Origin: Bifidobacterium polysaccharolyticum
Lineage (GTDB): Bacteria; Actinomycetota; Actinomycetes; Actinomycetales; Bifidobacteriaceae
Assembly: GCF_016101585.1 (NCBI RefSeq)
Contig: NZ_JACFQG010000003.1
Span: 249,826 to 313,825, forward strand
Length of the DNA: 64,000 nucleotides
Direction of reading: 5' to 3'
Shown: one piece after another, positions 2,969 to 17,539 of the stretch
Layout of the letters: every line of letters starts with the position of its first letter
Numbering within the stretch: position 1 is the stretch's first letter
The notes under the pieces: model-generated
Told to the model about the DNA's origin: nothing
Database searches by the model: none
Seen by the model: only the letters and a program-made list of their open reading frames with translations
Made by a program: the position numbers and the translations under genes

Positions 2969-3669
2969 CCGATCGTGAGGTATTCCTGGACTATCTGGCC
3001 AAGAAGAGCGGACGGCCCCGTCACCAGCTCAAGGACCACCCTCTGGTGCCGGTCAACGATCTGCCGGAGACCACCCTGTCGGGTCATACCCAGGATGAGC
3101 TGCTGGAAATCGCCCGGAAGAGCAGCGAGGCTGTCCATGTGGACTTCCGCACATGCACCAAGGCTGAGCTTCCCACTGCATTGGACGAGTTCATCGATTC
3201 ACGCAAGGACGACAGCGACCATGTGATGCTGCCCACCTCCGACCTGTTCGCAGACTTCGGGCTGGAGGAGTGGAGGGACAGCCTGAATCCGCCCGCCACT
3301 TTCTGGAAGCCGGGGGCCAGCCGTGAGGAGAACATCAAGACCGCCGACGAGTCAGGAACGGCCATCGCCTTTGCGGACTTCCTCCTGGCCGAGTCGGGCA
3401 CCATTACCGTGGCTACCACTCCTGGTCAGGGTCGTGCCTTCCACTTCCTGCCGGTTCACTATCTGAGCATCATTCGCAAGTCGAAGATTCTGCCCCGAAC
3501 CCGGCAGGCCATGGACTACTATGATCCCGCCCTGGTCTCAGGTGAGCTCAAGACCTCCAACATCAACTTCATCACTGGCCCCTCCAACACGGGCGACATC
3601 GAGATGGTGATTGTGGTGGGCGTGCATGGTCCCCTGGATATGACATATCTGGTGGTTGAAGACATGTAG
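2965..3669 (+). CDS. lutC: Lactate utilisation protein C (LUD domain)
   Basis: LutC is the third subunit of the LutABC system, 234 residues with the LUD fold. The start is ATG at 2965, inside the lutB stop (ATGA) and nine bases after an AAGGAG ribosome site; an earlier in-frame start at 2932 would overlap lutB needlessly. Family features include ADFLLAESGTITVATTPGQGR and the C-terminal TGPSNTGDIEMVIVVGVHGP. It is followed by a strong terminator that closes the operon. Confidence 0.93.
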   Translation: MTDREVFLDYLAKKSGRPRHQLKDHPLVPVNDLPETTLSGHTQDELLEIARKSSEAVHVDFRTCTKAELPTALDEFIDSRKDDSDHVMLPTSDLFADFGLEEWRDSLNPPATFWKPGASREENIKTADESGTAIAFADFLLAESGTITVATTPGQGRAFHFLPVHYLSIIRKSKILPRTRQAMDYYDPALVSGELKTSNINFITGPSNTGDIEMVIVVGVHGPLDMTYLVVEDM

Positions 3670-3704
3670 CTCGATAAAATTTCCTGCTTATGCAGGCGCA
3701 TTTC

Positions 3705-3763
3705 CCGCAAGTGGGGAGTCAGTGGCTTGAAGAAAGATGCTGACTCCCCACTTGCGGTTTTTG
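3705..3763 (+). terminator. Rho-independent terminator of lutABC
   Basis: A perfect 18-base-pair stem (CCGCAAGTGGGGAGTCAG at 3705-3722 with its complement at 3740-3757) closes a 17-base loop and is followed by TTTTTGTT. It lies between convergent lutC and rimM. Because the T-run is only on the + side, it mainly serves lutC. Confidence 0.92.
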
Positions 3764-3776
3764 TTAAAAGACGGAT

Positions 3777-4382
3777 TCAGCCCAGGCCAGGCAGAAGCCC
3801 TCCAGGTGGATCGATGGCCACATACCCGTTTTCAATGTCAACCTGGGGTACCAAGGCTTCGACGAAGGGTATCAGCCCCTCCGTTTCCTCGTCGTTTTCT
3901 GCGGTGGTCATGTGGACCTGCAGCTGCTGCTGGGCCACACCGTCCAGTACGTCGCTGACTTGGCCGACCACTCGTCCGGACGGTTCACCCAGTGAGTTAC
4001 CCGGAGCCATGCGAACCTCGAGTCCAATCAGATCCTCGGGATACCAGGCATCCTCCTGCGCCAGCTCCTCGGCTGGATCAGCCTGGACATACAGTTCGAT
4101 GCCGTTCAGTGCCTCAGAGGCGTTCCTGTCCTCCACCCCTTTGAAGAGGACGATCCAACGCTGTTTGAAGCGGCGGGAGGAGACCACCGTGAAAAACTGG
4201 CCGTCCTTGGTTTGCAACCGGGAGCCGGGAGCGAAGCGCCGCTCAGGCTCGTCGGTGTAGGCATAGACGTTGACCTCGCCCTTGAGTCCCTGGGCGCGGC
4301 CGATACGGCAGACCCTCAGCAACCTTCGCTGCTGAGGGTCCGGACCCTGCAGGTCGTGATTGGTGGACCGGCTGGGGCTCAC
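3777..4382 (-). CDS. rimM: 16S rRNA processing protein RimM
   Basis: RimM assists maturation of the 30S head and binds ribosomal protein S19. The 201-residue protein starts with a short polar extension, then the RimM N-terminal barrel (LRVCRIGRAQGLKGEVNVYAYTD), and ends with a PRC-barrel domain (EDLIGLEVRM to VPQVDIENGYVAIDPPGGLL), the usual two-domain layout. It is the last gene of the rpsP-khpA-rimM operon; its start overlaps the khpA stop by four bases. Confidence 0.93.
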   Translation of the reverse strand: MSPSRSTNHDLQGPDPQQRRLLRVCRIGRAQGLKGEVNVYAYTDEPERRFAPGSRLQTKDGQFFTVVSSRRFKQRWIVLFKGVEDRNASEALNGIELYVQADPAEELAQEDAWYPEDLIGLEVRMAPGNSLGEPSGRVVGQVSDVLDGVAQQQLQVHMTTAENDEETEGLIPFVEALVPQVDIENGYVAIDPPGGLLPGLG

Positions 4383-4630
4383 CGGCGCACGTCCATGATG
4401 TCGACGCGCACCTTGTGGTCGGCCAGAGCCTGGATCACGGTGCGGATGGCGTTGGCGGTCCTGCCGCCCCTGCCGATCACGCGGCCGATGTCCTCGGGGT
4501 TGACCCGCACCCGCAACAACTCTCCGCGAGAGTTCTCGTGGGACTTGACCGACACGTCATCGGGAAAGTCCACGATGTTCCTGATCAGGTGCTCAACGGC
4601 CTGTGCAAGCATGATAGCCGGTCCTTCCAA
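4379..4630 (-). CDS. khpA: KH-domain RNA-binding protein KhpA
   Basis: This is a small single-KH-domain RNA-binding protein of 83 residues, the normal family length. The GxxG loop is visible in GRVIGRGGRTANAIRTVI. KhpA proteins act with KhpB (Jag/EloR) in post-transcriptional and cell-elongation control in Gram-positive bacteria. The position between rpsP and rimM is the standard one in actinobacteria and firmicutes. Confidence 0.93.
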   Translation of the reverse strand: MEGPAIMLAQAVEHLIRNIVDFPDDVSVKSHENSRGELLRVRVNPEDIGRVIGRGGRTANAIRTVIQALADHKVRVDIMDVRR

Positions 4631-4648
4631 TCCTTAAGTGAATGTGCC

Positions 4649-5107
4649 TTACTCAGCTGCCTGCTCGGCCTGGGCTGCATCTGCCGACTCATCGGCCTTG
4701 GGGGCTTCCTTCTCTGCCTGAGCCTTGGCCTTGGCATCAGCTTCAGACTTGGCGGCCTTGAGCTTCTGAGCTTCGTTCTGTGCCTGCTCGATGCGGGCCT
4801 GGGCGTCGACCTCGGCCTGCGGCACCTTAAGGGTGCCTTCCTTGCCGGGCAGATCCTTGAACTTCTGCCAGTCGCCGGTGATCTTCAGGAGGTTGAAGAC
4901 AGGGTCGCTGGGCTGAGCGCCCACACCCAGCCAGTACTGGGCGCGCTCGGAGTCGATCTTGATTGAAGAGGGCTGGGTGTTGGGATCGTAGGTGCCGATC
5001 TCCTCAATGACCTTGCCATCGCGCTTCTTGCGGGAATCGACCACGACCACGCGGTAGAAGGGATAGAACTTCTTGCCCATTCTCTTCAGACGAATTCTGG
5101 TTGCCAA
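4649..5107 (-). CDS. rpsP: 30S ribosomal protein bS16 (TTG start)
   Basis: bS16 of the small ribosomal subunit, 152 residues. The conserved start [18 protein letters not shown] is immediately preceded by TTG (5107-5105), with AGGAG eight bases upstream, so TTG is the start; there is no ATG nearby and the longer frame to 5242 has no family similarity. The core ends near residue 90 and is followed by a long Ala/Lys/Glu-rich, predicted helical tail, as in bifidobacterial S16. First gene of the rpsP-khpA-rimM operon. Confidence 0.93.
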
Positions 5108-5278
5108 AACGGCTCTCCTTGGTACTTGGTATGCCCGGCGGCGTCTCCATGTGGGGCATGGTGGCGCTCCTGGCGTGTTCCTCACGGCCGTCGGAATGAG
5201 AGGGCTCCTCCGGACATGAATAACAGCAAAAGTATACCTCAACCTTGGGATATGGCGGGTGGCGAGGCTGCATGGTGT

Positions 5279-6241
5279 TCAGAGCTGACGCGGCAGAGTC
5301 AGACGGGCCACTAGAGCTCGATGGTCGCTGCCTGGAATTCGGAGGGCACGCATGGATTGTGTGATCAGGTTGCCGTCCGTCAGAATATGGTCGATTTCGA
5401 TTAACGAGGGCAGCGCGCTTGCGGAGGGGAAAGTCAGGTGGCTGCCGGCTTTCAGGTGCAAAGAAGCGTCATGCAGCCCGGATTCGGCCAGCATGGCCCG
5501 GAAGGTCGGATGCTGCAGGGTGGCGTTACAATCGCCCATGACTATGGTGGGCACGGTCGGATGAGTCAGCCTGGCCAGGGCAGCGATGCCCATGCCCCAC
5601 TGTCTGGCGCCTCGCTGGGGTGATTTGGGATGGACGCTGGCCACTCGGATCGGTCCAGAGCTGGTCTTGAGCTCGACTAGGGGTACTGCCGCCGCCGGAA
5701 GGTTCACGGCCGATGGCGAAGCTTTAACGGGTTGGTGAGCCGAGAAGATAGCGTTGTAGCCGCCGTTGTCGCTAGGGCTGGCAGTCCCCTCTGTCAGATA
5801 GGGCAGGAGCTGATTCAAGCCCGCAGCCTGAAGTGATTCCAGCAGCTTCCCCTTTACTTCTTGCAGGGCCAGAACCTCTACTCCGTAGGCGCGCACGCAA
5901 CGTACGATTTCCTCAGGATCGGCCCTGCCGAAGCGGCAGTTCAGAGTCATGACGCTCAGCCCATGGCCAGAAGATGATTGACGGGTCCGGTCTGCTGGAG
6001 GTAGTCGGTAGCGCAGGCGCTGGCAGCTGACCAGAGTAAGTTCAATCAGCGCCAGCAGGCATTGGGGCCATGCGCCTGCGACGACCGTCCATATCAGTAT
6101 GGCCAACAGAGGAGCGGTCAGCAGGTCAATCAGGGCGATTAGCTCTACCAAGGGGCGGTGCCAGTCAGCCCCGGCGGGCAGGAAGCGCAGGGTAATCCAT
6201 AAGGCGATGAGCCCCAGGAGAATCCAGAGAAGGGTGTTCAC
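5279..6241 (-). CDS. Endonuclease/exonuclease/phosphatase family membrane protein
   Basis: A 320-residue protein with two or three N-terminal membrane helices (about residues 1-75), then an EEP (DNase I-like) catalytic domain that should lie outside the membrane. Visible EEP motifs are LQEVKGK (metal-binding Glu), ASVHPKS, VMGDCNATLQHP and the C-terminal IDHILTDG...PGSDHRALVA with the catalytic His. Substrate is not known; relatives cleave nucleic acids or phosphoesters. It sits between ffh and rpsP on the same strand. Confidence 0.85.
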   Translation of the reverse strand: MNTLLWILLGLIALWITLRFLPAGADWHRPLVELIALIDLLTAPLLAILIWTVVAGAWPQCLLALIELTLVSCQRLRYRLPPADRTRQSSSGHGLSVMTLNCRFGRADPEEIVRCVRAYGVEVLALQEVKGKLLESLQAAGLNQLLPYLTEGTASPSDNGGYNAIFSAHQPVKASPSAVNLPAAAVPLVELKTSSGPIRVASVHPKSPQRGARQWGMGIAALARLTHPTVPTIVMGDCNATLQHPTFRAMLAESGLHDASLHLKAGSHLTFPSASALPSLIEIDHILTDGNLITQSMRALRIPGSDHRALVARLTLPRQL

Positions 6242-6271
6242 GTGCCATTGTCTCCTGCAGGAGGGAGGGGT

Positions 6272-7888
6272 TTAGCGACCGCCGAAGAGACCGCCCAATC
6301 CACCGCCCAGGTTGGGGGGCAGGTCAGGCAGACCCTCGGGCATCTGCGGGGCCTCAGGGTGCTTGGCGAAGGCGGAGCCGCCGGAGGACTTGCCCTTGCC
6401 GGAGAGGCGCTCGCGTAAAGCCTTCTCTTCGGCCTCCCGCTTCATGGGATTGCCTGAGCGAGAACCCTTGCGGCCTTTCTTGCCTTTTTTGCCCTTCTTG
6501 CCGCTGCCAGCGCCCATGCCGCCCATGCCGGGGATCGAGCGGCTGCCATTGGTCATACGCTTCATCATCTTGGCAGCCTGCTCGAACCGCTGCAGCAGGC
6601 CGTTGACAGCTGAGACCGTAGTGCCGGCGCCATAGGCGATCCGGGCCCGTCGTGAGCCGTCGATGATGCTGGGGTCGCGTCGTTCCTGGGGGGTCATCGA
6701 TTGGATGATGGCCTGGGTCCGGTCCACCTCTTTTTCGTCGAACTGCTCCAGCTCTTTGCGGTGCTGGGCCATGCCCGGGATCATCCCCAGGATGCTCTTG
6801 AAGGAACCCAGCTTGCGGACCTGCTGGAGCTGCTCCAAAAAGTCATCCAGGCCGAAGCTGCCCTCGGACATCTTCCCGGCGGCCTTGCGGGCCTCCTCCT
6901 CGTCGAACTGGCGCTGGGCCTGCTCGATCAGGGTCAGGATGTCGCCCATGTCCAGAATGCGGGAGGCCATACGATCGGGGTGGAAGACCTCGAAGTCCTT
7001 GAGACCCTCGCCGTTGGAGTCGAAGAGGATGGGCTTGCCGGTCACCGAGGCCACCGACAGGGCCGCGCCGCCGCGGGCATCGCCGTCCAGCTTGGACAGC
7101 ACCACACCGGTGAAGTCCACGCCCTGGTCGAAGGCCTTGGCTGTGGTGACCGCGTCCTGGCCGATCATGGCATCGATGACGAAGAGGATCTCATCGGGGT
7201 GGACGGCATCGCGGATATTACGGGCCTGCTCCATCAGCTCCTGATCCACGCCCAGCCGACCGGCCGTATCAATGATGACCACGTCGTAGAGCTTGTCCTT
7301 GGCCACCCTGATCGAGTCGGCCGCGACCTTGACGGGATCGCCCGTGACCTGTCCGGGGGCGGCCAGCTCGGATCCGCTGGTCTGTACGCCTGGCTCGGGT
7401 GCGTATACCGGCACTTCGGCGCGCTCGCCGACCACCTGGAGCTGGGTGACCGCGTTGGGCCGCTGCAGGTCGGCCGCCACAAGCAGGGGGGTGTGGCCGG
7501 CGTCCTTGAGCCAGTAGCCCAGCTTGCCGGCCAGTGTGGTCTTGCCTGCACCCTGCAGGCCGGCCAGCATGATGACTGTGGGTGGATTCTTGGCGAAATT
7601 GAGCGGTCGATCCACTCCCGCGCCCAGGATACTGGTCAGTTCGTCGTAGACGATGGAGACCACCTGCTGGGCCGGGTTCAGAGCCTTGGAGACCTCCTCG
7701 CCCAAGGCGCGTTCCCGGATGCGTCCGGTGAAGGAGCGCACCACATCCAGGGAGACATCGGCATCCAGAAGGGCGCGGCGGATCTCGCGGATTGTGCCGT
7801 CGATGTCGGCCTCGGTCAGCTTCCCCTTGGAGCGCAGATGGGTGAAGGCCTGGGAGAGCCGATCGGTCAAAGATGAAAATGCTGCCAT
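6272..7888 (-). CDS. ffh: Signal recognition particle GTPase Ffh
   Basis: Ffh binds signal peptides and 4.5S RNA and targets proteins to the SecYEG translocon. The 538-residue protein has the N domain, the G domain with P-loop GLQGAGKTT (about residues 110-118), DTAGRLGVD and SKLDGDARGG, and a C-terminal M domain containing RIAYGAGTTVSAVNGLLQRFEQAAKMMKRM-type helices with a Gly/Lys-rich tail. A short insert (PEPGVQTSGSELAAPGQVTG) lies between the P-loop region and the DTAG motif, seen also in other actinobacteria. Confidence 0.97.
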   Translation of the reverse strand: MAAFSSLTDRLSQAFTHLRSKGKLTEADIDGTIREIRRALLDADVSLDVVRSFTGRIRERALGEEVSKALNPAQQVVSIVYDELTSILGAGVDRPLNFAKNPPTVIMLAGLQGAGKTTLAGKLGYWLKDAGHTPLLVAADLQRPNAVTQLQVVGERAEVPVYAPEPGVQTSGSELAAPGQVTGDPVKVAADSIRVAKDKLYDVVIIDTAGRLGVDQELMEQARNIRDAVHPDEILFVIDAMIGQDAVTTAKAFDQGVDFTGVVLSKLDGDARGGAALSVASVTGKPILFDSNGEGLKDFEVFHPDRMASRILDMGDILTLIEQAQRQFDEEEARKAAGKMSEGSFGLDDFLEQLQQVRKLGSFKSILGMIPGMAQHRKELEQFDEKEVDRTQAIIQSMTPQERRDPSIIDGSRRARIAYGAGTTVSAVNGLLQRFEQAAKMMKRMTNGSRSIPGMGGMGAGSGKKGKKGKKGRKGSRSGNPMKREAEEKALRERLSGKGKSSGGSAFAKHPEAPQMPEGLPDLPPNLGGGLGGLFGGR

Positions 7889-8212
7889 AATGTCCCAAGT
7901 CTACCTGTCAGCCGGGAGATTGGCTCTGGTTTCAGCAATGCCTGTGCCCAAGACCTGCCTGGCTGGTTCTGATATGGAACGACGATTTTGTTCAATAGCA
8001 GAAGGCGTGTTACCCTGAATTTGCAACGTTGCAAATCAACATGAACCGGTCGGTCCGGCTCGCAGGGTGTTGATGTTTGATGCCCGGGGGCCGACGGGTT
8101 CTGAAAAACGATGCAGGGTTGCCGGCATACGGGTGTGCCGGTCCCATCGAGAGGAGCAAGAGGGATAGTGAGTGTCTTCAATGAAGAAAGACACGGGGGA
8201 GGTGGAACCCAC
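7889..8212. other. Intergenic region between ffh and the first sugar ABC operon
   Basis: About 320 bases between divergent ffh and the solute-binding protein gene. It holds the ffh promoter, the perfect palindromic operator at 8020-8035, and a weak promoter candidate for the ABC operon (TTGTTC at 7988-7993, 17 bases, TACCCT at 8011-8016) whose -10 abuts the operator. The transcript leader from there to the ATG at 8213 is about 180 bases and has no clear riboswitch-like fold. Confidence 0.5.
8020..8035. promoter_or_regulatory. LacI-family type operator (perfect palindrome)
   Basis: TTTGCAACGTTGCAAA is a perfect 16-base palindrome with the central CG typical of LacI-family operators. It lies just after a candidate -10, where a bound repressor would block transcription of the 8.2-11.8 kb ABC importer operon. 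It differs in sequence from the operators at 11.97-12.05 kb, so a different regulator may bind it. Confidence 0.75.
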
Positions 8213-9472
8213 ATGCCCTTATTTGCGCGACGTTGGCTCAGGCTGTTGCTGAGCCTGGCGGCCATATGCGGCATGGTGGTCTCGACCGCAGGCTGTGGCG
8301 GCGGCGATCAATCCGCCAAGGAGATCTACTTCTGGAATGGTTTGACCGGCGATGACGGTCCGGCCATGCAGAAAATCATCAAGGCCTTCAATGCACAGAG
8401 CCCCGAGTATAAGGTGGTCTTCCAGCCCATGAACGGCGGAGATCTGACCACCAAGATCTACAGCGTCATGCAGACCGGGAAGAACATCCCCGATCTGGTC
8501 ATCAACGATTCGTTCTCCACTTCGGTTCTGCAGAGCCAGGGGCTGCTCAACCCCTCCTCGGTGTGGACCAAATACCACCCGGAGCTGAAGGAGTCGAGCT
8601 TCCTGCCGCAGGCCTGGCAGAACACCGTCGTCAAGGGGAAGTCCTACGGCATCCCCCTGTACATGTTCCAGATGGCCATCTATTACAACAAGGATCTGAT
8701 CCACAAGTACGGCCTGGACTATATCCTGGACGACCGGCTGGTCACCACCGATGAGATCGCCTCCATGAAGGGCAAGCTGCCCAAGGACGTCTATGGGCTC
8801 TGCCTGGGCAACCTGCCCTGGGCCATGATGTCCCTGTTATACAGCACCGGCACCAACATCGAGGATGGCGTCAAGGACATGACCGGTCCGGGCTGGCGCA
8901 AGCCGCTCAAGGCACTGCGCGACCTCAACGACCAGGGCATGCTCTCGCCCATCGACAGCGACGGTGAGCAGGTCTTCGCCTCTGGGCATGCGGTCTTCGG
9001 CATGCTGGGCACCTGGGCGCAGGGCAACATGTCCTCCACCCTGGGCAAGGACAAGGTTGGCGAGATCAACACCCTCCAGTACGGTACCGAGCATCCTTCC
9101 AACTTCCTGTACCAGCAGAACTGGCTCCAGCTCAAGGACAAGAACCGGCCCGAGGCCAAGGTCAAAGCGGCCGCCGACTTTGTGGACTTCGTCTACAGGA
9201 ATTGGATGATGTGGTCGGACGTGGGATCCATCTCTCCGGCCTACCGTGACCTGAACAACCCGGAATACCAGAAGCTCATCCAGGCCTCCTTCACCAATGA
9301 CAAGCGTGAACGGCAGTGGATCAAGACATCCAACTACATCTATGGCGGCTATGCAACTGCCGGGTGGGGATCCTTCATGGACATCGTCTATCGGAACATC
9401 TCCCTGGAGGAAGGTCTGAAGACGCTTGATCTGATGACCCAGGGCCAGATCCAGATTCAGGAGCAATCATGA
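8213..9472 (+). CDS. Sugar ABC transporter solute-binding lipoprotein (first importer)
   Basis: A family 1 extracellular sugar-binding protein, 419 residues. It has a signal peptide with lipobox STAGC, the lipid-modified Cys at residue 28, and the type fold typical of oligosaccharide binders (KEIYFWNGLTGDDGPAMQKIIKAFNAQSPEYKV). ATG at 8213 follows a GGGGAGG ribosome site; the frame extends further upstream but without a signal peptide-like start. The stop overlaps the permease gene by four bases. The ligand cannot be read from sequence; the neighbouring GH172-type enzyme suggests a furanoside or fructo-oligosaccharide. Confidence 0.9.
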   Translation: MPLFARRWLRLLLSLAAICGMVVSTAGCGGGDQSAKEIYFWNGLTGDDGPAMQKIIKAFNAQSPEYKVVFQPMNGGDLTTKIYSVMQTGKNIPDLVINDSFSTSVLQSQGLLNPSSVWTKYHPELKESSFLPQAWQNTVVKGKSYGIPLYMFQMAIYYNKDLIHKYGLDYILDDRLVTTDEIASMKGKLPKDVYGLCLGNLPWAMMSLLYSTGTNIEDGVKDMTGPGWRKPLKALRDLNDQGMLSPIDSDGEQVFASGHAVFGMLGTWAQGNMSSTLGKDKVGEINTLQYGTEHPSNFLYQQNWLQLKDKNRPEAKVKAAADFVDFVYRNWMMWSDVGSISPAYRDLNNPEYQKLIQASFTNDKRERQWIKTSNYIYGGYATAGWGSFMDIVYRNISLEEGLKTLDLMTQGQIQIQEQS

Positions 9473-10395
9473 GCGCACACGGCACAACCGCAGTCATGGA
9501 TGGACGGGGCAAGCGCCGTCCGCTGGGACAGAAGTCCTTCTGGCATGCCTTCCCCTACATCGCCCCGCACATGGTGGTCTTCGCCATCTTCGGCGTCATC
9601 CCGATCTTCTTCGGCATCTACCTGGCCTTCACCAGGTGGAACCTGGTTGGTTCCCCCACCTGGGTCGGGCTGGACAACTTCAAGCTGATCTTTGACAAGT
9701 CCACCTACTTCTATTCCATTTTCTGGAGGGACATGTGGCACACGATCATCTTCGTGCTGATCAGCGTGCCCCTGACCATCATCGTCCCCCTGTTGCTGGC
9801 CTGCGCCCTGCAGACCAAGCACCTGAAGGGAGTGGGGCTCTTCCAGGCCATCTTCTATGTGCCCGGTCTGATCTCCGTGGCCGCAGGAGCCCTGGTCTGG
9901 CGGCTGGTCTTCAACTCCCAGTTCGGCCTGCTCAACACCACTTTCCGGTGGGACATCAACTGGCTGGGCAAGCAGCCCTGGGCCTGGATCGCCATCTTCG
10001 TCCTCAGTCTCTGGGGAGGCATCGGTGGCAACCTGATCATTTATCGGTCGGCCCTGTCCGGGGTAAGCCAGGATCTGTACGAGGCGGCCTCGGTGGATGG
10101 CGCCGGACCCATCCGGCAGTTCTTCAGCATCACCCTGCCGGCCATCAAGCTGCCACTCTTCTATACGACCATCATGACCACCGGCGGCGCCTTCAACGTC
10201 TGGGGCCAGCCACAAATGCTGACCGGCGGCGGTCCTGCCTACACTTCGCAGGTGCTGCTGATGGACATCAGGAACCTGGCCTTCCCGCAAGGGCCTTCGG
10301 CCGCTGGCATGGCCTCCGCAATGGCCCTGCTGCTGGGGATCATCCTCATGCTGATCTCCCTGGTCCAGATATTCTTCATGAACAAGGAGGACTGA
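9469..10395 (+). CDS. Sugar ABC transporter permease, MalF type (first importer)
   Basis: First membrane subunit of a CUT1 carbohydrate importer, 308 residues with about six membrane helices. The EAA loop that docks the ATPase is visible as YEAASVDGAGPIRQFFSITLPAI. It overlaps the binding-protein gene upstream by four bases and is one base from the next permease. No ATPase gene is present in the island, so the importer must borrow a shared MsmK-type ATPase encoded elsewhere, as is usual in bifidobacteria. Confidence 0.93.
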   Translation: MSAHGTTAVMDGRGKRRPLGQKSFWHAFPYIAPHMVVFAIFGVIPIFFGIYLAFTRWNLVGSPTWVGLDNFKLIFDKSTYFYSIFWRDMWHTIIFVLISVPLTIIVPLLLACALQTKHLKGVGLFQAIFYVPGLISVAAGALVWRLVFNSQFGLLNTTFRWDINWLGKQPWAWIAIFVLSLWGGIGGNLIIYRSALSGVSQDLYEAASVDGAGPIRQFFSITLPAIKLPLFYTTIMTTGGAFNVWGQPQMLTGGGPAYTSQVLLMDIRNLAFPQGPSAAGMASAMALLLGIILMLISLVQIFFMNKED

Positions 10396-10396
10396 C

Positions 10397-11341
10397 ATGA
10401 GTTCGGCAACCCTTGATATGGCATCCCTGGGCAAGGGGCTCAAGGCTCCTGGCCCCAGCGCAACGGTTCCCGGAGGCGAGAACGTGCCCGAAAACCACCA
10501 CAAGGTGCTCAAGCCTTCACTGGTGGCCATCTATGCGGTGCTGATCGTCCTGGCTGTGGTCTGGATCATTCCTGTGGTCTATACCATCACGACATCGTTC
10601 AAGTCACCCCAGGAGTTCCTGAAGAACGCCTACAACTTCCTGCCTGCGCACTGGGTCACCGTCAACTATCTGACCCTGCTGCAGGCCTCGGCCTCCTACC
10701 CTGTCTTCAACTGGCTGGGCAACTCGCTGGTCATCTCGCTGTCCCATGGCATCCTGGCGGTCTGCGTGGTGGCTCTGGCCGGGTACGGCTACTCCCGAAT
10801 CAACTTCAAGGGCAGGGACACGCTCTTCTTCGTCCTCCTGCTCATCTCGATGTTCCCGGGTGTGGTCAACATGATTCCCTCATACCGCATCGTGGCCACT
10901 TTCGGCTGGATCAACTCATACTGGTCCTGCATCATCCCCGGCTTGGGGAACGTGGCGAATATCTTCCTGGTGCGCAACTTCATGAAGGGGATCCCCAAGG
11001 AGATCGACGAGGCCGCCGAGATTGACGGCGCCGGCGATTTCCGCATCTTCCGCAGCATCATGCTGCCCTCCATCCGCCCGATCCTGATTGTGATCTTCCT
11101 GTTCGCCTTCACTGGAGCATGGAACGACTTCCTCTGGCCCACTTTGGTCTTCAACGACATCAAGAAGACCCCGGTCACGGCCGGCCTGCAGCTGCTGGGC
11201 AACCAGATGATGCAGTACAACCAGATGGGCACGCTTTGCGCGGCCACCTGCCTGGCCATCATCCCCACCCTGCTGCTCTTCGTATTCGCCCAGCGCTACT
11301 TCCTGCAGTCGCTGAACATCACCTCGGGCCTCAAGGGCTGA
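10397..11341 (+). CDS. Sugar ABC transporter permease, MalG type (first importer)
   Basis: Second CUT1 permease subunit, 314 residues. A cytosolic N-terminal stretch of about 40 residues precedes six predicted membrane helices. The EAA motif is DEAAEIDGAGDFRIFRSIMLPSI, and the C-terminus LQSLNITSGLKG is typical of MalG-like partners. It forms the pore with the preceding MalF-type subunit. Confidence 0.93.
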   Translation: MSSATLDMASLGKGLKAPGPSATVPGGENVPENHHKVLKPSLVAIYAVLIVLAVVWIIPVVYTITTSFKSPQEFLKNAYNFLPAHWVTVNYLTLLQASASYPVFNWLGNSLVISLSHGILAVCVVALAGYGYSRINFKGRDTLFFVLLLISMFPGVVNMIPSYRIVATFGWINSYWSCIIPGLGNVANIFLVRNFMKGIPKEIDEAAEIDGAGDFRIFRSIMLPSIRPILIVIFLFAFTGAWNDFLWPTLVFNDIKKTPVTAGLQLLGNQMMQYNQMGTLCAATCLAIIPTLLLFVFAQRYFLQSLNITSGLKG

Positions 11342-11360
11342 ATCAGGAAAGGCGGCAACA

Positions 11361-11816
11361 ATGGCAAAGGAAAACCGCAGTGATCATGCGGCGGGTAAGG
11401 ACGTAGCGAGCAGAAAGACCGAGAAGATCATTCTCCTGGTGGCGGCAGCCATCAACGTGATCATGGCCTCGGTCACCATGTTCATCTACTCGCCCTGGTT
11501 CAAGGACGAGGGCTATGCCATCCTCGGCCGGGCCGGACGTCTGGCCGACGATATGGCCACAGTCAACGGCGCGGCCACCGTGGCCCAATCCTACGGTTTT
11601 CTGCTGCTTATTCTTGGGGCGGTCTCCTTCATCGTGGCTCTGCGGGCCATGCGGCCCTCGACGATTATTCGGGGGGTGCAGTACTGGATGATCTTCTGCA
11701 TGGTCTTTTCCTTGGCCACGGCAGATTGGCTTTCGCTGATCGTCTACGGCCTGGCCTTCGTCACCTATGTGGCCAGGAACAAGACCATCCGCCGGATCTC
11801 GTCGAGTCGAAGGTGA
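11361..11816 (+). CDS. Four-helix membrane protein of unknown function in the sugar operon
   Basis: A 151-residue protein I do not recognise. A charged N-terminus (about 20 residues, Lys/Asp/Arg-rich) is followed by four hydrophobic segments: about residues 24-45, 72-92, 108-125 and 127-140, ending in a basic tail. There is an extracytoplasmic loop of roughly 25 residues between helices 1 and 2. ATG at 11361 follows AGGAAAGG. It is 19 bases after the permease and directly before the operon terminator, so it is co-transcribed with the importer. A transport accessory or permease-assembly role is possible but unproven. Confidence 0.8.
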   Translation: MAKENRSDHAAGKDVASRKTEKIILLVAAAINVIMASVTMFIYSPWFKDEGYAILGRAGRLADDMATVNGAATVAQSYGFLLLILGAVSFIVALRAMRPSTIIRGVQYWMIFCMVFSLATADWLSLIVYGLAFVTYVARNKTIRRISSSRR

Positions 11817-11862
11817 CCAGTCCCGGGGGTACGCGGCGCCCCTGACCGCTGCACTTCCAATC

Positions 11863-11907
11863 CACTCCCCCTTGTCCGAAACCATCGGGCAAGGGGGAGT
11901 GTTTTTG
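11863..11907 (+). terminator. Terminator of the first sugar importer operon
   Basis: Perfect 12-base-pair stem, CACTCCCCCTTG at 11863-11874 pairing with 11890-11901, followed by TTTTTGATTTT. It ends the operon 8.2-11.8 kb before the second importer's promoter. Confidence 0.93.
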
Positions 11908-11938
11908 ATTTTGGGGTAGTCTTCTTCAGCGCGCCTTG

Positions 11939-11968
11939 TTGACATGTCCTATGACAGACTCCTATAAT
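11939..11968 (+). promoter_or_regulatory. Sigma-70-type promoter of the second importer operon
   Basis: TTGACA (11939-11944), an 18-base spacer and TATAAT (11963-11968) make a consensus promoter. Transcription would start near 11975, inside the first operator, about 130 bases before the binding-protein gene. Confidence 0.82.
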
Positions 11969-11970
11969 GA

Positions 11971-11986
11971 GTCGAAACGATTCGAT
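11971..11986. promoter_or_regulatory. LacI-family type operator O1 over the transcription start
   Basis: GTCGAAACGATTCGAT is a near-perfect palindrome (half-site TCGAA) placed two bases after the -10. A repressor here would block initiation. The same half-site recurs in the operator at 12035-12050. Confidence 0.72.
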
Positions 11987-12034
11987 ATTTCGGTTGCATC
12001 GACGAAGATGGTCAGCGCCTGCAGTACACCCGAA

Positions 12035-12050
12035 GTCGAAACCTTTCGAC
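12035..12050. promoter_or_regulatory. LacI-family type operator O2
   Basis: GTCGAAACCTTTCGAC has arms GTCGAAA and TTTCGAC that pair exactly around a CC centre. It sits 64 bases (about six helical turns) downstream of O1, a spacing that would suit two dimers on one face of the DNA. The LacI gene at 16.5-17.5 kb is the likely binder. Confidence 0.72.
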
Positions 12051-12102
12051 ACATTGAATCGCAGTAGATGGATGCAAGGATGCAAGGAAGTTAGGAGCCA
12101 TC

Positions 12103-13413
12103 ATGAAGATCAGAAGAGGGATCGGGGCGGCCTTGGCCTTGGCCATGTCGATCCTGCCGCTGGCGGCCTGTGGATCGGGGGGCGATGCTCCCCAGGAAGC
12201 CCATCCGTCCAGCATCAAAATCTGGTACTACGAGGAGCCCAGCAGCGGTCAGGCCCGGGGCTGGCTGAAGGCTGCTGATATCTTTACCCGACAGACCGGC
12301 ATCAAGGTGGATTTCGAGGTCAAGTCTTTCACTCAGATTGCCCAGAATGGCAGCCAGTTCCTTAATTCGGACGACGCCCCGGACGTCATGGAGTCCAATC
12401 GCGGCAACGGCTCGGCCGGGGTTCTGTCCACCCTGCAGCTGCTGACCGACCTGAAACCCTATGTACAGAAGTACGGCTGGGACAAAAAGGTACGCGGCCA
12501 GGCAGCAGCAGTGGGCAAGTATGACAAGCGCGGAGTCATGGACGGGAACACCTGGTACGGGGTTTCCTCCTATGCGGAGATGCAGCGCGTCTACTACAAC
12601 AAGGACCTCTTTGCCAAGTACAAGATCCCCATCCCGCAGACCTTTGACCAGTTCGTGGCAGCCCTCAAGGCCTTCAAGAGCCACGGGGTCACGCCCATAG
12701 CGGCCGATGCCCAGGAATACGGTGTGCTGTGGCTCTGGTGGCAGCTGGCCATGACCAAGGCCGATGCCCGATTCGTCGATGATTGGCAGCTCTACAAGCA
12801 TCCGGTCAACTGGCGCAGCAAGCCGCTGACCTTCGCCACCAATACCATCCGTGACTGGATCGACAAGGGATACATCTCCAAGAACGCCACCGGTATGAAG
12901 GCCGAGGACACGACCACGGCATTCATCAAGGGGACCTATCCCATCTACCAGACCGGCACCTGGAACCAGACCCGCTTCATGGAGCAGGTGAAGGCCTTCG
13001 ACTGGACGGCATCCATCTTCCCAGGGGCCAAGATGGTCGAGGGCTGCGCGGGCAACCTGCTGGTCATCCCGCAGAAGTCACGGCGCAAGGATGCCGCAGC
13101 CCGCTATATCAATGTGGTCCTGTCCAAAGAGGTTCAGAACTACATCGGCAACAAGGGCGGCGTGCCGGTGGCGGCCGATACGGACGCCATCACCAACCCC
13201 AAGAGCCGTGACCTGGTCAACGAATACACCAAAGCCTCGGACGCCAGCCGGATGAGCTACTATCCCGACTACCCCGCGCCCAACCTGACCGACGCCATGC
13301 CGGCCGCCTTCCAGGAGCTGGTCAACGGCACCAAGAGCCCCGACCAGGTTCTGGACACCCTGCATAAGAACTACGACGACGGCGTCGCCCAGCTCGATCT
13401 GGATGACGACTGA
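12103..13413 (+). CDS. Sugar ABC transporter solute-binding lipoprotein (second importer)
   Basis: Another family 1 sugar-binding lipoprotein, 436 residues, with signal peptide and lipobox PLAAC (lipid Cys at residue 23). SIKIWYYEEPSSGQARGWLKAADIFTRQTGIKVDFEV is the usual N-lobe start. It shows little direct similarity to the binding protein at 8.2 kb, so the two importers probably have different ligands or are not a recent duplication. It is the first gene of the operon under the 11939-11968 promoter. Confidence 0.92.
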   Translation: MKIRRGIGAALALAMSILPLAACGSGGDAPQEAHPSSIKIWYYEEPSSGQARGWLKAADIFTRQTGIKVDFEVKSFTQIAQNGSQFLNSDDAPDVMESNRGNGSAGVLSTLQLLTDLKPYVQKYGWDKKVRGQAAAVGKYDKRGVMDGNTWYGVSSYAEMQRVYYNKDLFAKYKIPIPQTFDQFVAALKAFKSHGVTPIAADAQEYGVLWLWWQLAMTKADARFVDDWQLYKHPVNWRSKPLTFATNTIRDWIDKGYISKNATGMKAEDTTTAFIKGTYPIYQTGTWNQTRFMEQVKAFDWTASIFPGAKMVEGCAGNLLVIPQKSRRKDAAARYINVVLSKEVQNYIGNKGGVPVAADTDAITNPKSRDLVNEYTKASDASRMSYYPDYPAPNLTDAMPAAFQELVNGTKSPDQVLDTLHKNYDDGVAQLDLDDD

Positions 13414-13444
13414 GCTGCGTCAATCCGCCAAGGAGAGTACAAGC

Positions 13445-14380
13445 ATGTCTGACACACATAGCAGGAAAAAGGCGCAGTCCCGAATCCCGGGCAGTGCGCC
13501 CTCGCGGTTCGTCCCTTATCTGATTCCCGGTCTGATAGGCATTGTGGCCATCGTCATCGTGCCCATCTTCTGGAACATCTACCTGAGCTTCACCCGCTGG
13601 AGAGGGGTGGGGCCAACCAAATGGGTGGGTCTGCGCAACTGGCGACGGCTCATGGGCGACTCGACCTTCTGGGTCTCCTTCGGGCACACCCTCTGGATCA
13701 TTGTGGCCATCGTCATCATTCCCACGGTTCTGGGCCTGCTGATCTCCTCGGCCCTGACTGATGTGATCCAGAAGAAGTTCGGCCCTCATACCTCCTCGAC
13801 CCTGCGGGCCCTCTACTACCTGCCCCAGGTTCTGCCTGTGGCCGTGGCCACCATCATCATGGGCTGGATCTTCCGGCCTGAAGACGGTGCGGTCAACGAC
13901 CTGCTGACCAAGATCGGCCTGGGCGGATTGGCCCACAACTGGCTGGGTTCGACCACCACGGCCCTGCCCATCCTCATGGTCATCCTGATCTGGATCCAGC
14001 TGGGCTATCCCATCGTCATCTTCATGTCCGGACTGCAGCGGGTGGATCCCGAGCTCTACGAGGCGGCCAGCCTGGACGGGGCCAACTGGTGGCAGAAGTT
14101 CCGCGTCATCACCCTGCCCTCCATCATTCCCGAGCTGCTGGTGGTCATCCTCACCTCCACCATCGGCGCTCTGAAGACCTTCGCTCCGGTCTATCTGCTG
14201 ACCAAGGGCGGGCCCGGCACCTCCACCATGGTTCCCTCCTACTACTCCTACAACCAGTTCTTCCAGGTGCAGCAGGTAGGCTACGGCGCCGCAATCTCAA
14301 CATCCCTGACCGTGGTCATCGTCATCTTCTCCATTGTCTTCACCATCGTGCAGAAGCGCGTGCAAAAGAGCATCGCCTGA
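13445..14380 (+). CDS. Sugar ABC transporter permease, MalF type (second importer)
   Basis: CUT1 permease of 311 residues with six predicted helices. The EAA loop reads YEAASLDGANWWQKFRVITLPSI. I chose ATG 13445 because an AAGGAGAG ribosome site lies just upstream (about 13430); the frame's earlier start at 13403 overlaps the preceding gene. It pairs with the permease at 14401. Confidence 0.92.
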   Translation: MSDTHSRKKAQSRIPGSAPSRFVPYLIPGLIGIVAIVIVPIFWNIYLSFTRWRGVGPTKWVGLRNWRRLMGDSTFWVSFGHTLWIIVAIVIIPTVLGLLISSALTDVIQKKFGPHTSSTLRALYYLPQVLPVAVATIIMGWIFRPEDGAVNDLLTKIGLGGLAHNWLGSTTTALPILMVILIWIQLGYPIVIFMSGLQRVDPELYEAASLDGANWWQKFRVITLPSIIPELLVVILTSTIGALKTFAPVYLLTKGGPGTSTMVPSYYSYNQFFQVQQVGYGAAISTSLTVVIVIFSIVFTIVQKRVQKSIA

Positions 14381-14400
14381 GGAAGGCTAGGAAGCACATC

Positions 14401-15282
14401 ATGAATAATCAAGCCACACTGCAAGCCGACGCCCGGGTGTCCTCCCGGCACGCCCGTAGAATCCGCACCTGGGGGAACTGGGCCGGTCTGATCCTGCTCA
14501 TCGCGGGAGCTGTGATCATGCTCTTCCCCCTGCTGATCCTGGTCCTGAACGCATTCAAGACCACGGCTGACTACAACGCCACGGGCCCCCTGTCCGTGCC
14601 CGCCCACTTCAGCATGGACGGCATCATCTCCTTCTGGAACAAGAGCAATTTCCCGCTCAAACTGGGCAACTCCCTGCTGATTTCCCTGGTGGTTGCCGTG
14701 GTCGGGGTCCTGCTTTCGGTCCTCAACTCCTTCGCCCTGGGCATCGGCAGGGTCAAGGGCAACACGGTCATCCTCCTGTTCATCATGCTGGCCAACATGG
14801 TTCCCCAGGAGGCCTTGCTCTACCCGCTCTACGTCATGTTCAAGTGGATGGGCTTCTATAACTCCCAGTGGTCCATCATCATCATCTTCACCATTATTCA
14901 GAGCGCCTACGGTACTTATCTGCTTTCCTCGGTCTACGGGACCTTCCCCCAGGCCATACTGGAGGCGGCCACCGTCGACGGGGCCTCGCGCTGGCAGATT
15001 CTTCGCAAGATCGTACTGCCGGTGTCCTGGTCGACCATCAGCGTCCTCTTCGTCTTCTTCTTCATCTGGACCTGGAACGAGTACATGATTCCCATGGCCT
15101 TCCTGATGAGCGAGAAGACGCAGACCATTCCGCTGGCCTTGGCCACCATGCAAGGGCAGCACACCATGGCCGCCACCGACCTGGCCTCCGCCTCCCTGCT
15201 CAGCATCATCCCCACCATCATCTTCTTCATCTTCTTCCAGAGGAAGCTCTCGCAGGGGATAGTGGCTGGCGCTGTCAAGTAA
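14401..15282 (+). CDS. Sugar ABC transporter permease, MalG type (second importer)
   Basis: CUT1 permease of 293 residues. EAATVDGASRWQILRKIVLPVSW is the ATPase-docking EAA loop, and the tail RKLSQGIVAGAVK is the standard MalG-like C-terminus. ATG 14401 is preceded by GAGGAAGG; the frame continues upstream within the previous gene without a membrane start. Again no ATPase gene is adjacent. Confidence 0.92.
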   Translation: MNNQATLQADARVSSRHARRIRTWGNWAGLILLIAGAVIMLFPLLILVLNAFKTTADYNATGPLSVPAHFSMDGIISFWNKSNFPLKLGNSLLISLVVAVVGVLLSVLNSFALGIGRVKGNTVILLFIMLANMVPQEALLYPLYVMFKWMGFYNSQWSIIIIFTIIQSAYGTYLLSSVYGTFPQAILEAATVDGASRWQILRKIVLPVSWSTISVLFVFFFIWTWNEYMIPMAFLMSEKTQTIPLALATMQGQHTMAATDLASASLLSIIPTIIFFIFFQRKLSQGIVAGAVK

Positions 15283-15374
15283 TCGCCGCCGTACACGTAC
15301 ACTGAAATGGCCGCCTGCCGCAAGAAGGCAGAGGAGGGGAGCGGGCGGCCCGAATATGAAAGGCAATCACAACC

Positions 15375-16505
15375 ATGGGTATGACCATGCCGAACATCAC
15401 CAACGGTCTTGAGGCGCTGACCCGCCCATCCACAGACCGCACCCGCTGCATCAACGCCGAGAACCCCCGAGGTGGCAAGGGCAGAGCGGCTATGACGGCC
15501 AGTAATCTGGGCCCCTCAAGGAAGGGGACTCCTTGCCTGAAGAACATCCCTCCCGGGAAGGACATGGTTCTGGCTGACCTGTCCGGCGCGGGCGAGATCC
15601 GTCATATCTGGATGACGGTGACCGATGCCACCTCGCCCACCGGGCCCAACGTTCTGCGCAATCTGATTCTGGAATGCTACTGGGATGGCGAACAAACGCC
15701 GTCCGTCTGCGTGCCCCTGGGTGACTTCTTCTGCTGTGGTCACGCCCAAGCCTGCCGGGTTGAGTCCGTGCCTGTGGCCGTCTATCCGCGCCGGGGCTTC
15801 AACTGCTACTGGCCCATGCCCTTCCATGACGGGGCCCGGATCGTCCTGCGCAACCGGCATAACGAGCCCATTGAGGCCTTTTTCTACCAGATCGACTACG
15901 TGGAGAAGGACGAGCTGCCCGAGGAGGTCATGACTTTCCATGCCCAGTGGCGCCGTCAGCGGGTCACCGAACTGGGTCAGGACTACGTGATCCTGGACGG
16001 GGTGCATGGCCGGGGCTCCTACGTGGGCACCTATTTGGCTCTGACCGCTCTGGAGAGCCGCTGGTGGGGGGAGGGCGAGGTCAAGGTCTACCTGGACGGA
16101 GACAAGGACTATCCCACCTGGTGTTCCACGGGCAGCGAGGACTACTTCGGCGGCGCCTGGAGCTTTGCCGGGCAGGGCGCGGATGGCCGTATGCGCGAGG
16201 CCACCTACAGCGGGGCCTACATGGGATTTCCCTTCCACTCCAGGCAGTTGGACAACCGCGAATCCCAGTACTGGGATGCCGACACCCCGGTAACCAGGGG
16301 GTTCTACCGTTGGCACATCCCCGACCCGATTATTTTCTCCAGCGATATCAAGGTGACCTTGCAGCAGATAGGTGTGGACGAACAAGGCTACTTCGAACGT
16401 CAGGATGATCTGGCCAGCGTGGCCTATTGGTACCAGCAGGAGCCCCATAAGCCCTTCCCGCAGAACGTGCTGGAGACGGGGGAGCGGGACCGCCGACCCC
16501 GTTGA
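15375..16505 (+). CDS. DUF2961 / GH172-type glycoside hydrolase
   Basis: A 376-residue cytoplasmic protein with no signal peptide. It matches the DUF2961 family, now glycoside hydrolase family 172, whose studied members act on alpha-D-fructofuranosides (including a difructose dianhydride I synthase/hydrolase from Bifidobacterium dentium) or D-arabinofuranosides. Visible motifs: GEIRHIWMTV, GDFFCCGHA, RGFNCYWPMPF, CSTGSEDYFGGAW and YMGFPFHSR. Glu255 in GSEDYF and Glu275 in REATYSG are the likely catalytic pair by spacing to the known enzyme; that is inference. It is 92 bases after the permease, in the same operon, so its substrate should be what the importer brings in. ATG 15381 is an alternative start. 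Confidence 0.88.
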   Translation: MGMTMPNITNGLEALTRPSTDRTRCINAENPRGGKGRAAMTASNLGPSRKGTPCLKNIPPGKDMVLADLSGAGEIRHIWMTVTDATSPTGPNVLRNLILECYWDGEQTPSVCVPLGDFFCCGHAQACRVESVPVAVYPRRGFNCYWPMPFHDGARIVLRNRHNEPIEAFFYQIDYVEKDELPEEVMTFHAQWRRQRVTELGQDYVILDGVHGRGSYVGTYLALTALESRWWGEGEVKVYLDGDKDYPTWCSTGSEDYFGGAWSFAGQGADGRMREATYSGAYMGFPFHSRQLDNRESQYWDADTPVTRGFYRWHIPDPIIFSSDIKVTLQQIGVDEQGYFERQDDLASVAYWYQQEPHKPFPQNVLETGERDRRPR

Positions 16506-16510
16506 TTGGC

Positions 16511-17539
16511 TCAGGCGGCCTCCTGCTTCTGTCTGCTGATGGAGGCGCGATCGATCAGCCTGGGGCGCTCCAGTAGGACTCGTCCAGCCAGAGAAGCCCC
16601 CTCCTCCACAGCCTGTGTCAGCAGATCCGCAGCCTTGGCGCACAGTGAGCGGGGGGTAAGTGGCATCTCAGAGATACCCTGAAGCTCAAGAGTATGGCTG
16701 ACCTTGCCTGCAGCGCAGGACAGAACAGCCACGTCATCGGGAATGCTCATGCCGTCTGAGTGCATGCGGACCACCACAGTGTCCAGTAGGGAGGGGCGGA
16801 TCTGGCCGATCAGACCATCAATGTGGCCGTGATGGATGATGTCCAGCACTCGCTGGGTGTAGGCCAGATCGCTGCCGGTAGGGCCCGGTTCAAGCTGCAG
16901 ATCCATCCCCAGACGGCAGGCCCAGGTTTTAAGACTGCGTAGCAGGATGAGGCGGAAGCCGGACCCGCGCCGGTATTCGCCCTCCAGATCCTCCAGAAAG
17001 AGCAGGCGTTTGCGTCCCGCTCTGGCCATGGCTTCCACCGCCATACGACCCATCAGGTCAAAGTCCAGATCCACACAGGCGCATGCTGTGTGCTGCCGAG
17101 GCAACCCCAGTGCCACGCAGGGGCGTCCATACGAGGCGGCCTGGGCGGCGCGGATGTCATCGTCCACCAGATCCATCAGCACCACGCCGTCGGCCAGATT
17201 GCTACGGGTGACCCGCCGGATATCTTCAACGCCATTCTCGGCAGTCAGCAACAGGGAGTCATAGCCCCGGGCATGCTCGCAACTGGCCATCTCGATGAAG
17301 TAGTCCGCGTATGAGGCCCGGTTCTGACCGGGTCGGAGCGGGGCGCTCAGAGCGACGATCTGATTGCGCTTGGCCCGCAGCATCCTGGCGCCGGCATCCG
17401 GGGCGTAGTCCAGTTCGTCGGCGGCCTGCATGATCCGCTGGTAGGTTCCGGGAGAGACGGGACGTTTGCCGGAGAAGGCATAGGAGACTGTGCTGACCGA
17501 GACCCCGGCCCTTCTGGCGACGTCGCGTATGTCGGACAT
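16511..17539 (-). CDS. LacI-family transcriptional regulator of the sugar island
   Basis: A 342-residue repressor. The N-terminal helix-turn-helix reads IRDVARRAGVSVSTVSYAFS and is followed by the hinge helix region (AGARMLRAKRNQ) and a periplasmic-binding-protein-like effector domain. It faces the GH172 gene tail to tail, 5 bases apart, and so very probably controls the adjacent importer operons through TCGAA-type operators. It starts 4 bases after the cysS stop on the same strand, so some of its transcription may come from the cysS promoter. Confidence 0.92.
   Translation of the reverse strand: MSDIRDVARRAGVSVSTVSYAFSGKRPVSPGTYQRIMQAADELDYAPDAGARMLRAKRNQIVALSAPLRPGQNRASYADYFIEMASCEHARGYDSLLLTAENGVEDIRRVTRSNLADGVVLMDLVDDDIRAAQAASYGRPCVALGLPRQHTACACVDLDFDLMGRMAVEAMARAGRKRLLFLEDLEGEYRRGSGFRLILLRSLKTWACRLGMDLQLEPGPTGSDLAYTQRVLDIIHHGHIDGLIGQIRPSLLDTVVVRMHSDGMSIPDDVAVLSCAAGKVSHTLELQGISEMPLTPRSLCAKAADLLTQAVEEGASLAGRVLLERPRLIDRASISRQKQEAA

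Follow-up and report, generated by a model that had tools for sequence, protein, structure and literature searches.

In a 64-kb window of the Bifidobacterium polysaccharolyticum genome (the whole stretch of 64,000 nucleotides analyzed, G000:C8:249826-313825, to which the coordinates below refer), we identified a cassette encoding a solute-binding lipoprotein (SBP2), two permeases, and an enzyme of family GH172 (DUF2961), faced by the gene for a LacI-family regulator. The best explanation of this locus is that the cassette probably imports an α-D-fructofuranoside resembling a difructose anhydride (DFA), which is then cleaved inside the cell by a retaining mechanism. This reading draws on the small gatekeeper residue of the enzyme, the clade in which the enzyme falls, the GH32 genes neighboring its relatives, the GH32 genes of its own genome, and the lack of a match to an FucI-type isomerase there. 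In kind the locus is ordinary, an operon that combines ATP-binding cassette (ABC) import with a cytoplasmic hydrolase. An earlier note on this DNA had called the pathway a candidate undescribed one, which overstates its novelty in kind; ABC import with intracellular GH172 cleavage had already been proposed for BBDE_2039-2043 of B. dentium, with BBDE_2041-2043 as the importer and αFFase1 plus a GH32 enzyme as the hydrolases (PMC8605356). The claim of novelty is fair for the GH172 clade to which the window enzyme belongs, in which the gatekeeper is mostly Ser or Ala.

A conserved cassette with its own promoter and operators

Gene families were assigned by Pfam profiles on open reading frames (ORFs). 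On the forward strand, the cassette starts with SBP2 (12103..13413, SBP_bac_1, E 1e-29) and continues with permease A (13403..14380, BPD_transp_1, E 7.4e-22) and permease B (14401..15282, BPD_transp_1). The start of permease B was picked by eye, since the listed ORF start at 14089 gives an overlong frame and the ATG at 14401 is likelier. The GH172 gene (15375..16505, DUF2961, E 2.6e-90) closes the operon, and the LacI gene (LacI, E 1.5e-15), which presumably encodes the cassette repressor, lies on the reverse strand at 16511..17539. In these respects the earlier note had read the locus correctly, as it had the enzyme's length of 376 residues and the absence of an ATPase gene, none being present in the region. 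It had also described the enzyme as free of a signal peptide, in line with the lack of an N-terminal hydrophobic segment by eye, no signal-peptide program having been run. A search of the 2.23-Mb genome found no DUF2961 gene besides this one, which shares 95-97% identity with genes from Bifidobacterium asteroides strains, B. mizhiense, and Bifidobacterium sp. 7101. Bifidobacteria of this group inhabit the bee gut, and the host is accordingly taken as a bee-gut-type Bifidobacterium.

The order SBP2-permease A-permease B-GH172 recurs in 8 of 11 bifidobacterial loci (exceptions L029, L032, and L035) and in 19 of 22 loci from other actinobacteria (exceptions L083, L085, and L090). In the latter cassettes, identity to the window proteins was 31-38% for SBP2, 44-54% for permease A, 46-53% for permease B, and 49-54% for GH172. 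GH172 loci of Firmicutes mostly have different, distant importers, or none that we found. Within a genus group of 27 genomes, 17 of which carry GH172, an SBP2-like gene (at least 59% identity) accompanies the enzyme in 17/17 and is present in 0/10 of the genomes lacking it; at 48% identity, SBP2 homologues occur in both sets. The SBP2 match of genome G007 (G007:C1:220346-221653) carries an in-frame TAG stop, and the GH172 gene of this genome has no stop.

An intrinsic terminator with a 17-bp stem and a T tail (11863..11901, forward strand) closes the preceding operon, referred to as operon 1 herein, and the cassette is headed by a TTGACA-18-TATAAT promoter with 12 of 12 consensus matches (11939..11968, forward strand). 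Overall, promoter-like sites numbered 2 against a shuffle mean of 2.7, which is no excess, and terminator-like sites 10 against 6.2. A palindrome search located two candidate operators at the cassette, GTCGAAACGATTCGAT (11971..11986) and GTCGAAACCTTTCGAC (12035..12050), both given on the forward strand; it returned 4 matches against a shuffle mean of 0.32. Genome-wide, the exact pattern has three matches, two of them at the cassette, and the reversed control pattern has none. The third match, inside a 592-aa reading frame that we take to be phosphate acetyltransferase, was set aside as chance. Upstream of SBP2, a TCGAAAC..TTCGA-type site was present in 8/8 orthologous bifidobacterial cassettes. 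The palindromes at the cassette promoter are thus linked to a gene for a LacI helix-turn-helix protein and conserved among relatives, where LacI homologues accompany the cassette or GH172. We presume from this arrangement that the facing LacI protein is a repressor that binds the two cassette operators. It would repress the operon at these sites, just downstream of the consensus promoter, and would be released by a sugar derived from the substrate.

In genome G008 the unit is split. The lone GH172 gene keeps the operator, and about 112 kb away a LacI gene, an SBP2 homologue of 60% identity, and permeases keep TCGAAACGTTTCGA; the two LacI proteins are 43% identical. Genome G004 likewise has a lone GH172 gene with the operator. 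Based on the recurring gene order, the shared operators, and the retention of the operator by both split halves, SBP2, the permeases, and GH172 with LacI are a real unit. The earlier note's proposal that an intact glycoside is imported and cleaved within the cell gains support from this linkage and from the shared operators.

Active site, fold, and clade of the GH172 enzyme

Pfam (302.5 bits versus a curated cut-off of 27, over the full profile), PDB sequence matches, and the predicted fold agree with the earlier note in placing the enzyme in GH172. The predicted structure (pLDDT 84) is a double jelly-roll, with TM scores of 0.80 to ExoMA1 of Microbacterium arabinogalactanolyticum (8ic8), 0.75 to BACUNI_00161, 0.72 to αFFase1 (7v1v), and 0.72 to 8ah3. 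The top 7 fold matches are chains of the GH172 entries 8ic8, 4kq7, 7v1v, and 8ah3, followed by double-jelly-roll capsids such as that of PRD1.

Upon alignment to αFFase1 and ExoMA1, we assigned Glu233 as the acid/base and Glu255 as the nucleophile, together with Asp256, Trp230, and Trp262. The counterparts of E233, E255, D256, W230, and W262 in αFFase1 are E270, E291, D292, W267, and W298, and these catalytic and -1 subsite residues are invariant in 37/37 aligned members. Of the pair Glu255/Glu275 named in the earlier note, Glu255 was retained as catalytic; Glu275, though present, aligned to no catalytic position and was rejected, the acid/base position falling on Glu233. Tyr187 of αFFase1 corresponds to Phe170 in the window enzyme, and the Y187F mutant of αFFase1 remains active (PMC8605356). 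On this evidence, the enzyme would be a cytoplasmic retaining furanosidase.

Gly299 in αFFase1 versus Asn253 in ExoMA1 accounts for the preference for fructofuranose or arabinofuranose, respectively, as Gly299 admits the C1 hydroxymethyl of fructofuranose and Asn253 blocks it (PMC10509167). At this gatekeeper position the window enzyme aligns with Ser263, small like Gly299. In an IQ-TREE phylogeny, from which near-identical rows and very divergent sequences were excluded (80 of 111 sequences kept), the window enzyme fell in a Ser/Ala clade of 60 tips (40 Ser, 19 Ala, 1 Gly, 0 Asn; SH-aLRT 92.5, UFBoot 98). ExoMA1 fell in an Asn clade of 9 tips (SH-aLRT 87.7, UFBoot 100) and αFFase1 elsewhere, so the window enzyme shares a clade with neither. 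An earlier FastTree phylogeny, likewise freed of near-identical rows, gave the same picture, with 87 tips in this third clade, including L075 and L080, at a support of 0.90. The Ser/Ala clade occurs in many Actinobacteria and Firmicutes. We recognized no characterized member of it among the papers listed for GH172, DUF2961, and alpha-D-fructofuranosidase, the characterized enzymes NocGH172, MycGH172, DgGH172a, and DgGH172b (PMC10115798) having no place in the tree; this branch appears uncharacterized.

Substrate of the cassette

To survey gene neighborhoods, 24 genomes were searched whole for GH172, GH32, and DUF4185 (the D-arabinanase family), counting as near a GH32 or DUF4185 start within 10 kb of a GH172 gene. 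Of 44 GH172 match rows, 34 entered the count; L097 was not searched, and nine stretches covering the other ten rows were placed later (two Asn-type, one with L080, one Cys-type beside DUF4185, and five far outliers). GH32 was near 10 of 26 third-clade genes (0.37 expected), one of which, that of L080, has no settled place in the tree, and near 7 of 23 (0.29 expected) when three genomes chosen for known GH32 were omitted. The corresponding counts were 0/6 for Asn-clade genes and 2/2 for αFFase1-group genes. DUF4185 was near 0/26 third-clade, 1/6 Asn-clade, and 0/2 αFFase1-group genes; a Microbacterium Asn-clade locus, that of a close relative of ExoMA1, contains an FGGY kinase and DUF4185. For the two Asn-type genes placed later, neither GH32 nor DUF4185 was listed on their contigs.

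Among 80 named GH172 loci, several with short flanks, GH32 was found in at least 21 and a PfkB kinase in 8, by profiles that were themselves derived from members of these loci. The GH32 figure is a lower bound because in GC-rich loci some genes escape the ORF caller; the GH32 gene beside GH172 in the genome of L096, for instance, was found only by the whole-genome search. One PfkB kinase, run against NCBIfam, matched fructokinase best, under the cut-off. Scans of neighbors covered 142 of 268 listed (for Firmicutes, mostly those on the forward strand) and gave tallies without member names; the mannose/fructose/sorbose families of the phosphotransferase system (PTS) each matched 2 of 76 sampled neighbors. 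In Trichococcus (L088:6469-8573) and Sporolactobacillus (L101:7425-9529), GH172 appears after PTS genes of the mannose/fructose/sorbose family, as placed by frame size and order.

The B. polysaccharolyticum genome itself has three GH32 genes, one of which belongs to the GH172-associated subtype, being 55.6% identical to the GH32 of L085 that lies 3 kb from a Ser/Ala-clade GH172 gene. No family match to an L-fucose/D-arabinose (FucI-type) isomerase was found in this genome with working positive controls. More broadly, a D-arabinan context (DUF4185/GH183, D-arabinose isomerase) was not found for the window enzyme, GH116 not having been searched. PDB searches with SBP2 and with SBP1, the binding protein of operon 1, returned distant sugar binders only and gave no hint of the substrate.

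We propose that SBP2 and its two permeases, energized by a shared ATPase, would take up an intact α-D-fructofuranoside, either difructose-anhydride-like or another α-fructofuranosyl oligosaccharide. The cytoplasmic GH172 enzyme would split the α-furanosidic bond with retention, using Glu255 as nucleophile and Glu233 as acid/base, and the freed fructose or inulobiose-type product would feed into GH32 and hexose catabolism, whose genes lie elsewhere. As for the ATPase, 91 ABC-ATPase matches were found genome-wide, of which one, at G000:C7:535427, lies above the UgpC cut-off and carries an OB_MalK domain; the permease profile had no match in the 16 kb around it. We infer that a shared MalK/MsmK-type ATPase encoded elsewhere serves the SBP2 importer.

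Several observations weigh against the proposed pathway. ExoMA1 is the best PDB match by sequence as well as by fold, at 42% identity versus 36% for αFFase1, and most characterized GH172 enzymes in the papers covered act on D-arabinofuranosides (PMC10115798, PMC10509167). The segments that carry the αFFase1 +1 subsite residues Glu85 and Lys147 are absent from the window enzyme and are gaps in 100/100 homologue rows, several bee genes being doubled in these rows (104 translations were kept in the alignment, those with stops or short matches dropped). Because these segments are missing, the acceptor side is unlike that of αFFase1, and we do not call the enzyme a DFA I synthase/hydrolase. A small gatekeeper is also compatible with D-arabinofuranose: αFFase1, with Gly, cleaves p-nitrophenyl α-D-arabinofuranoside (PMC8605356), and DgGH172c, with Cys at the gatekeeper column of our alignment, is active on D-arabinan (PMC10115798), so an arabinofuranoside keeps a share of the probability. 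In Cohnella, a Cys-type GH172 gene (G048:C23:20218) starts 1.2 kb from DUF4185. As for the neighborhoods, 16 of 26 third-clade genes have no GH32 within 10 kb, and of the 11 bifidobacterial loci just 1 has GH32 near GH172. The 76 sampled neighbors include one protein of the fucose-isomerase family, and the counts are not independent because the loci are related. DUF4185 was not found in the organism's own genome by a search without a positive control, although the same model matched in 4 of 24 other genomes. When nine extra, partly very divergent sequences were added in FastTree, the third clade no longer stood apart from the Asn clade (support 0.235), and the deeper joining order of GH172 clades is unsettled. 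Lastly, genome G014 keeps GH172 and LacI, yet we found no such operator nearby.

If the cassette instead imported α-D-arabinofuranosyl oligosaccharides, the enzyme would be an exo-α-D-arabinofuranosidase like ExoMA1. We consider this unlikely given that the gatekeeper is Ser rather than Asn, that ExoMA1 sits in the Asn clade, apart from that of the window enzyme, that DUF4185 is near none of the 26 third-clade genes yet occurs with an FGGY kinase near the Microbacterium relative of ExoMA1, and that the genome yielded no FucI-type isomerase. The substrate could also be a mixed glycoside in which one unit is an α-ketofuranosyl residue, such as a glucose-fructose anhydride or a difructose anhydride bearing glucose; the partner of GH172 would then be an α-glucosidase instead of a fructosidase. 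In other bee bifidobacteria, GH172 paralogues do sit alongside importers and an enzyme of the alpha-amylase family, which belongs to the operon in L153 and lies close by in L155, and an α-D-fructofuranose α-D-glucopyranose dianhydride has been reported in sucrose caramel (PMC6245366). These paralogues are only 56-57% identical to the window enzyme, their binding proteins 24-25% over the aligned parts, and the window cassette has no alpha-amylase-family enzyme, which makes a mixed glycoside quite unlikely.

The nearest known systems resemble the locus in part. With the B. dentium locus the window shares the GH172 fold, the catalytic Glu pair, a small gatekeeper, a cytoplasmic location, and an ABC importer of its own (PMC8605356). 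It differs in that the enzyme belongs to another clade and lacks the Glu85/Lys147 segments, in that the cassette has no GH32 next to GH172 and the importer (PMC8605356), and in that SBP2 is only 21% identical to the binding protein from a relative's αFFase1-like locus. ExoMA1 is likewise a cytoplasmic GH172 enzyme with an ABC importer in its cluster; that cluster, in contrast, is a D-arabinan cluster with GH183, GH116, an isomerase, and a kinase (PMC10509167), and its Asn253 corresponds to Ser263 here. In Blautia, clusters of GH91, GH32, and an ABC importer follow the same proposed logic, in which DFA III is imported and then opened intracellularly by GH91, an enzyme of another family with a β-helix (PMC11538131).

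DFAs have been reported in caramels and have been used to detect adulteration of honey by syrup (PMC6245366), and this may be how they reach bees. None of the papers listed for Bifidobacterium, bee, and difructose dealt with this pathway in bees. A broader proposal, in which we have limited confidence, is that the Ser/Ala clade is a separate subfamily of intracellular α-ketofuranosidases, often with an importer of their own, and that bee symbionts might use it to harvest an α-fructofuranoside that other bacteria of the bee gut are unable to open; DFA I would not be this substrate, since the +1 site differs. The analysis defines a large GH172 branch for which we found no assayed member in the literature covered, and it opens a specific sugar pathway of bee-gut Bifidobacterium to direct testing. 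Residue and gene-context predictions may separate fructofuranosidases from arabinofuranosidases within GH172.

The neighboring importer and further GH172 and GH32 loci

Operon 1, on the forward strand upstream of the cassette, encodes the solute-binding lipoprotein SBP1 (8111..9472, SBP_bac_1, E 1.5e-20), permease A (9469..10395, BPD_transp_1, E 4.7e-14), permease B (10397..11341, BPD_transp_1, E 7e-20), and a predicted membrane protein of 151 aa without a Pfam match (11361..11816). Each importer thus has the CUT1-type makeup of one binding protein and two BPD_transp_1 permeases, and the tandem arrangement described in the earlier note is borne out by the ORFs and Pfam matches. The 151-aa protein is 62-96% identical in 4/4 other operon 1 loci tested (L028, L031, L163, and L151), with no match in L026 and L027, two loci without operon 1. 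The earlier note had overlooked the gene for this protein, as it had the terminator and promoter between the operons and the two cassette operators. Upstream of operon 1 lies a LacI-like operator palindrome, TTTGCAACGTTGCAAA (8020..8035, forward strand), unlike those of the cassette; it has 1 match in the window, and 9 of 100 shuffles give one at no more than 3 mismatches. Its core, TTGCAACGTTGCAA, is kept in L028, L031, and L163, with a near-match by eye in L151.

The earlier note had suggested that the importers serve two linked substrates. That both importers and the enzyme form a single pathway of this kind is highly improbable, even though 6 of the 27 genus-group genomes have them side by side. 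SBP1 (at least 79% identity) occurs in 6 of the 17 genomes with GH172 and 1 of the 10 without it (7/27 overall). In G022, which lacks GH172, operon 1 is present by itself between cysS and ffh, whereas L026, L027, and L030 have only the GH172 cassette and LacI at this site. Since a terminator intervenes, the cassette has its own promoter, the palindromes differ, and either operon stands alone at ffh-cysS in relatives, operon 1 is a separate importer module that shares an insertion locus with the cassette, and a functional link was rejected on the grounds of stand-alone occurrence and distinct palindromes. The ffh-cysS locus looks like one where modules come and go.

Other GH172 and GH32 loci were noted along the way. 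The Cohnella Cys-gatekeeper GH172 (G048:C23:18979-20997, part in L170) lies outside the Ser/Ala and Asn clades beside a GH183-type DUF4185, the two likely being a D-arabinan pair with a small gatekeeper. In L154 (G025:C14:32000-48000), positions 3904-10087 hold an αFFase1-like GH172, GH32, and an ABC importer, as in B. dentium, and this genome carries two Ser-type GH172 genes elsewhere. In L153 (G007:C1:1853000-1870000), positions 7101-13053 encode a binding protein, two permeases, an enzyme of the alpha-amylase family, and a GH172 paralogue of 56% identity; as the paralogue ends a run with an alpha-amylase-family enzyme, this suggests a substrate containing glucose and furanose. The dnaK spot of G021, recognized by eye (L155, G021:C7:44000-60000, 3141-15958), holds a GH172 paralogue, an importer, an alpha-amylase-family enzyme, a LacI-like frame, and a 746-aa protein (L155:7063-9303) with no Pfam, NCBIfam, or PDB match. 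In the B. polysaccharolyticum genome, the dnaK-grpE-dnaJ neighborhood contains a LacI and GH32 pair (L148, G000:C8:5000-20000, 5794-8465), and this site is another variable sugar-gene spot.

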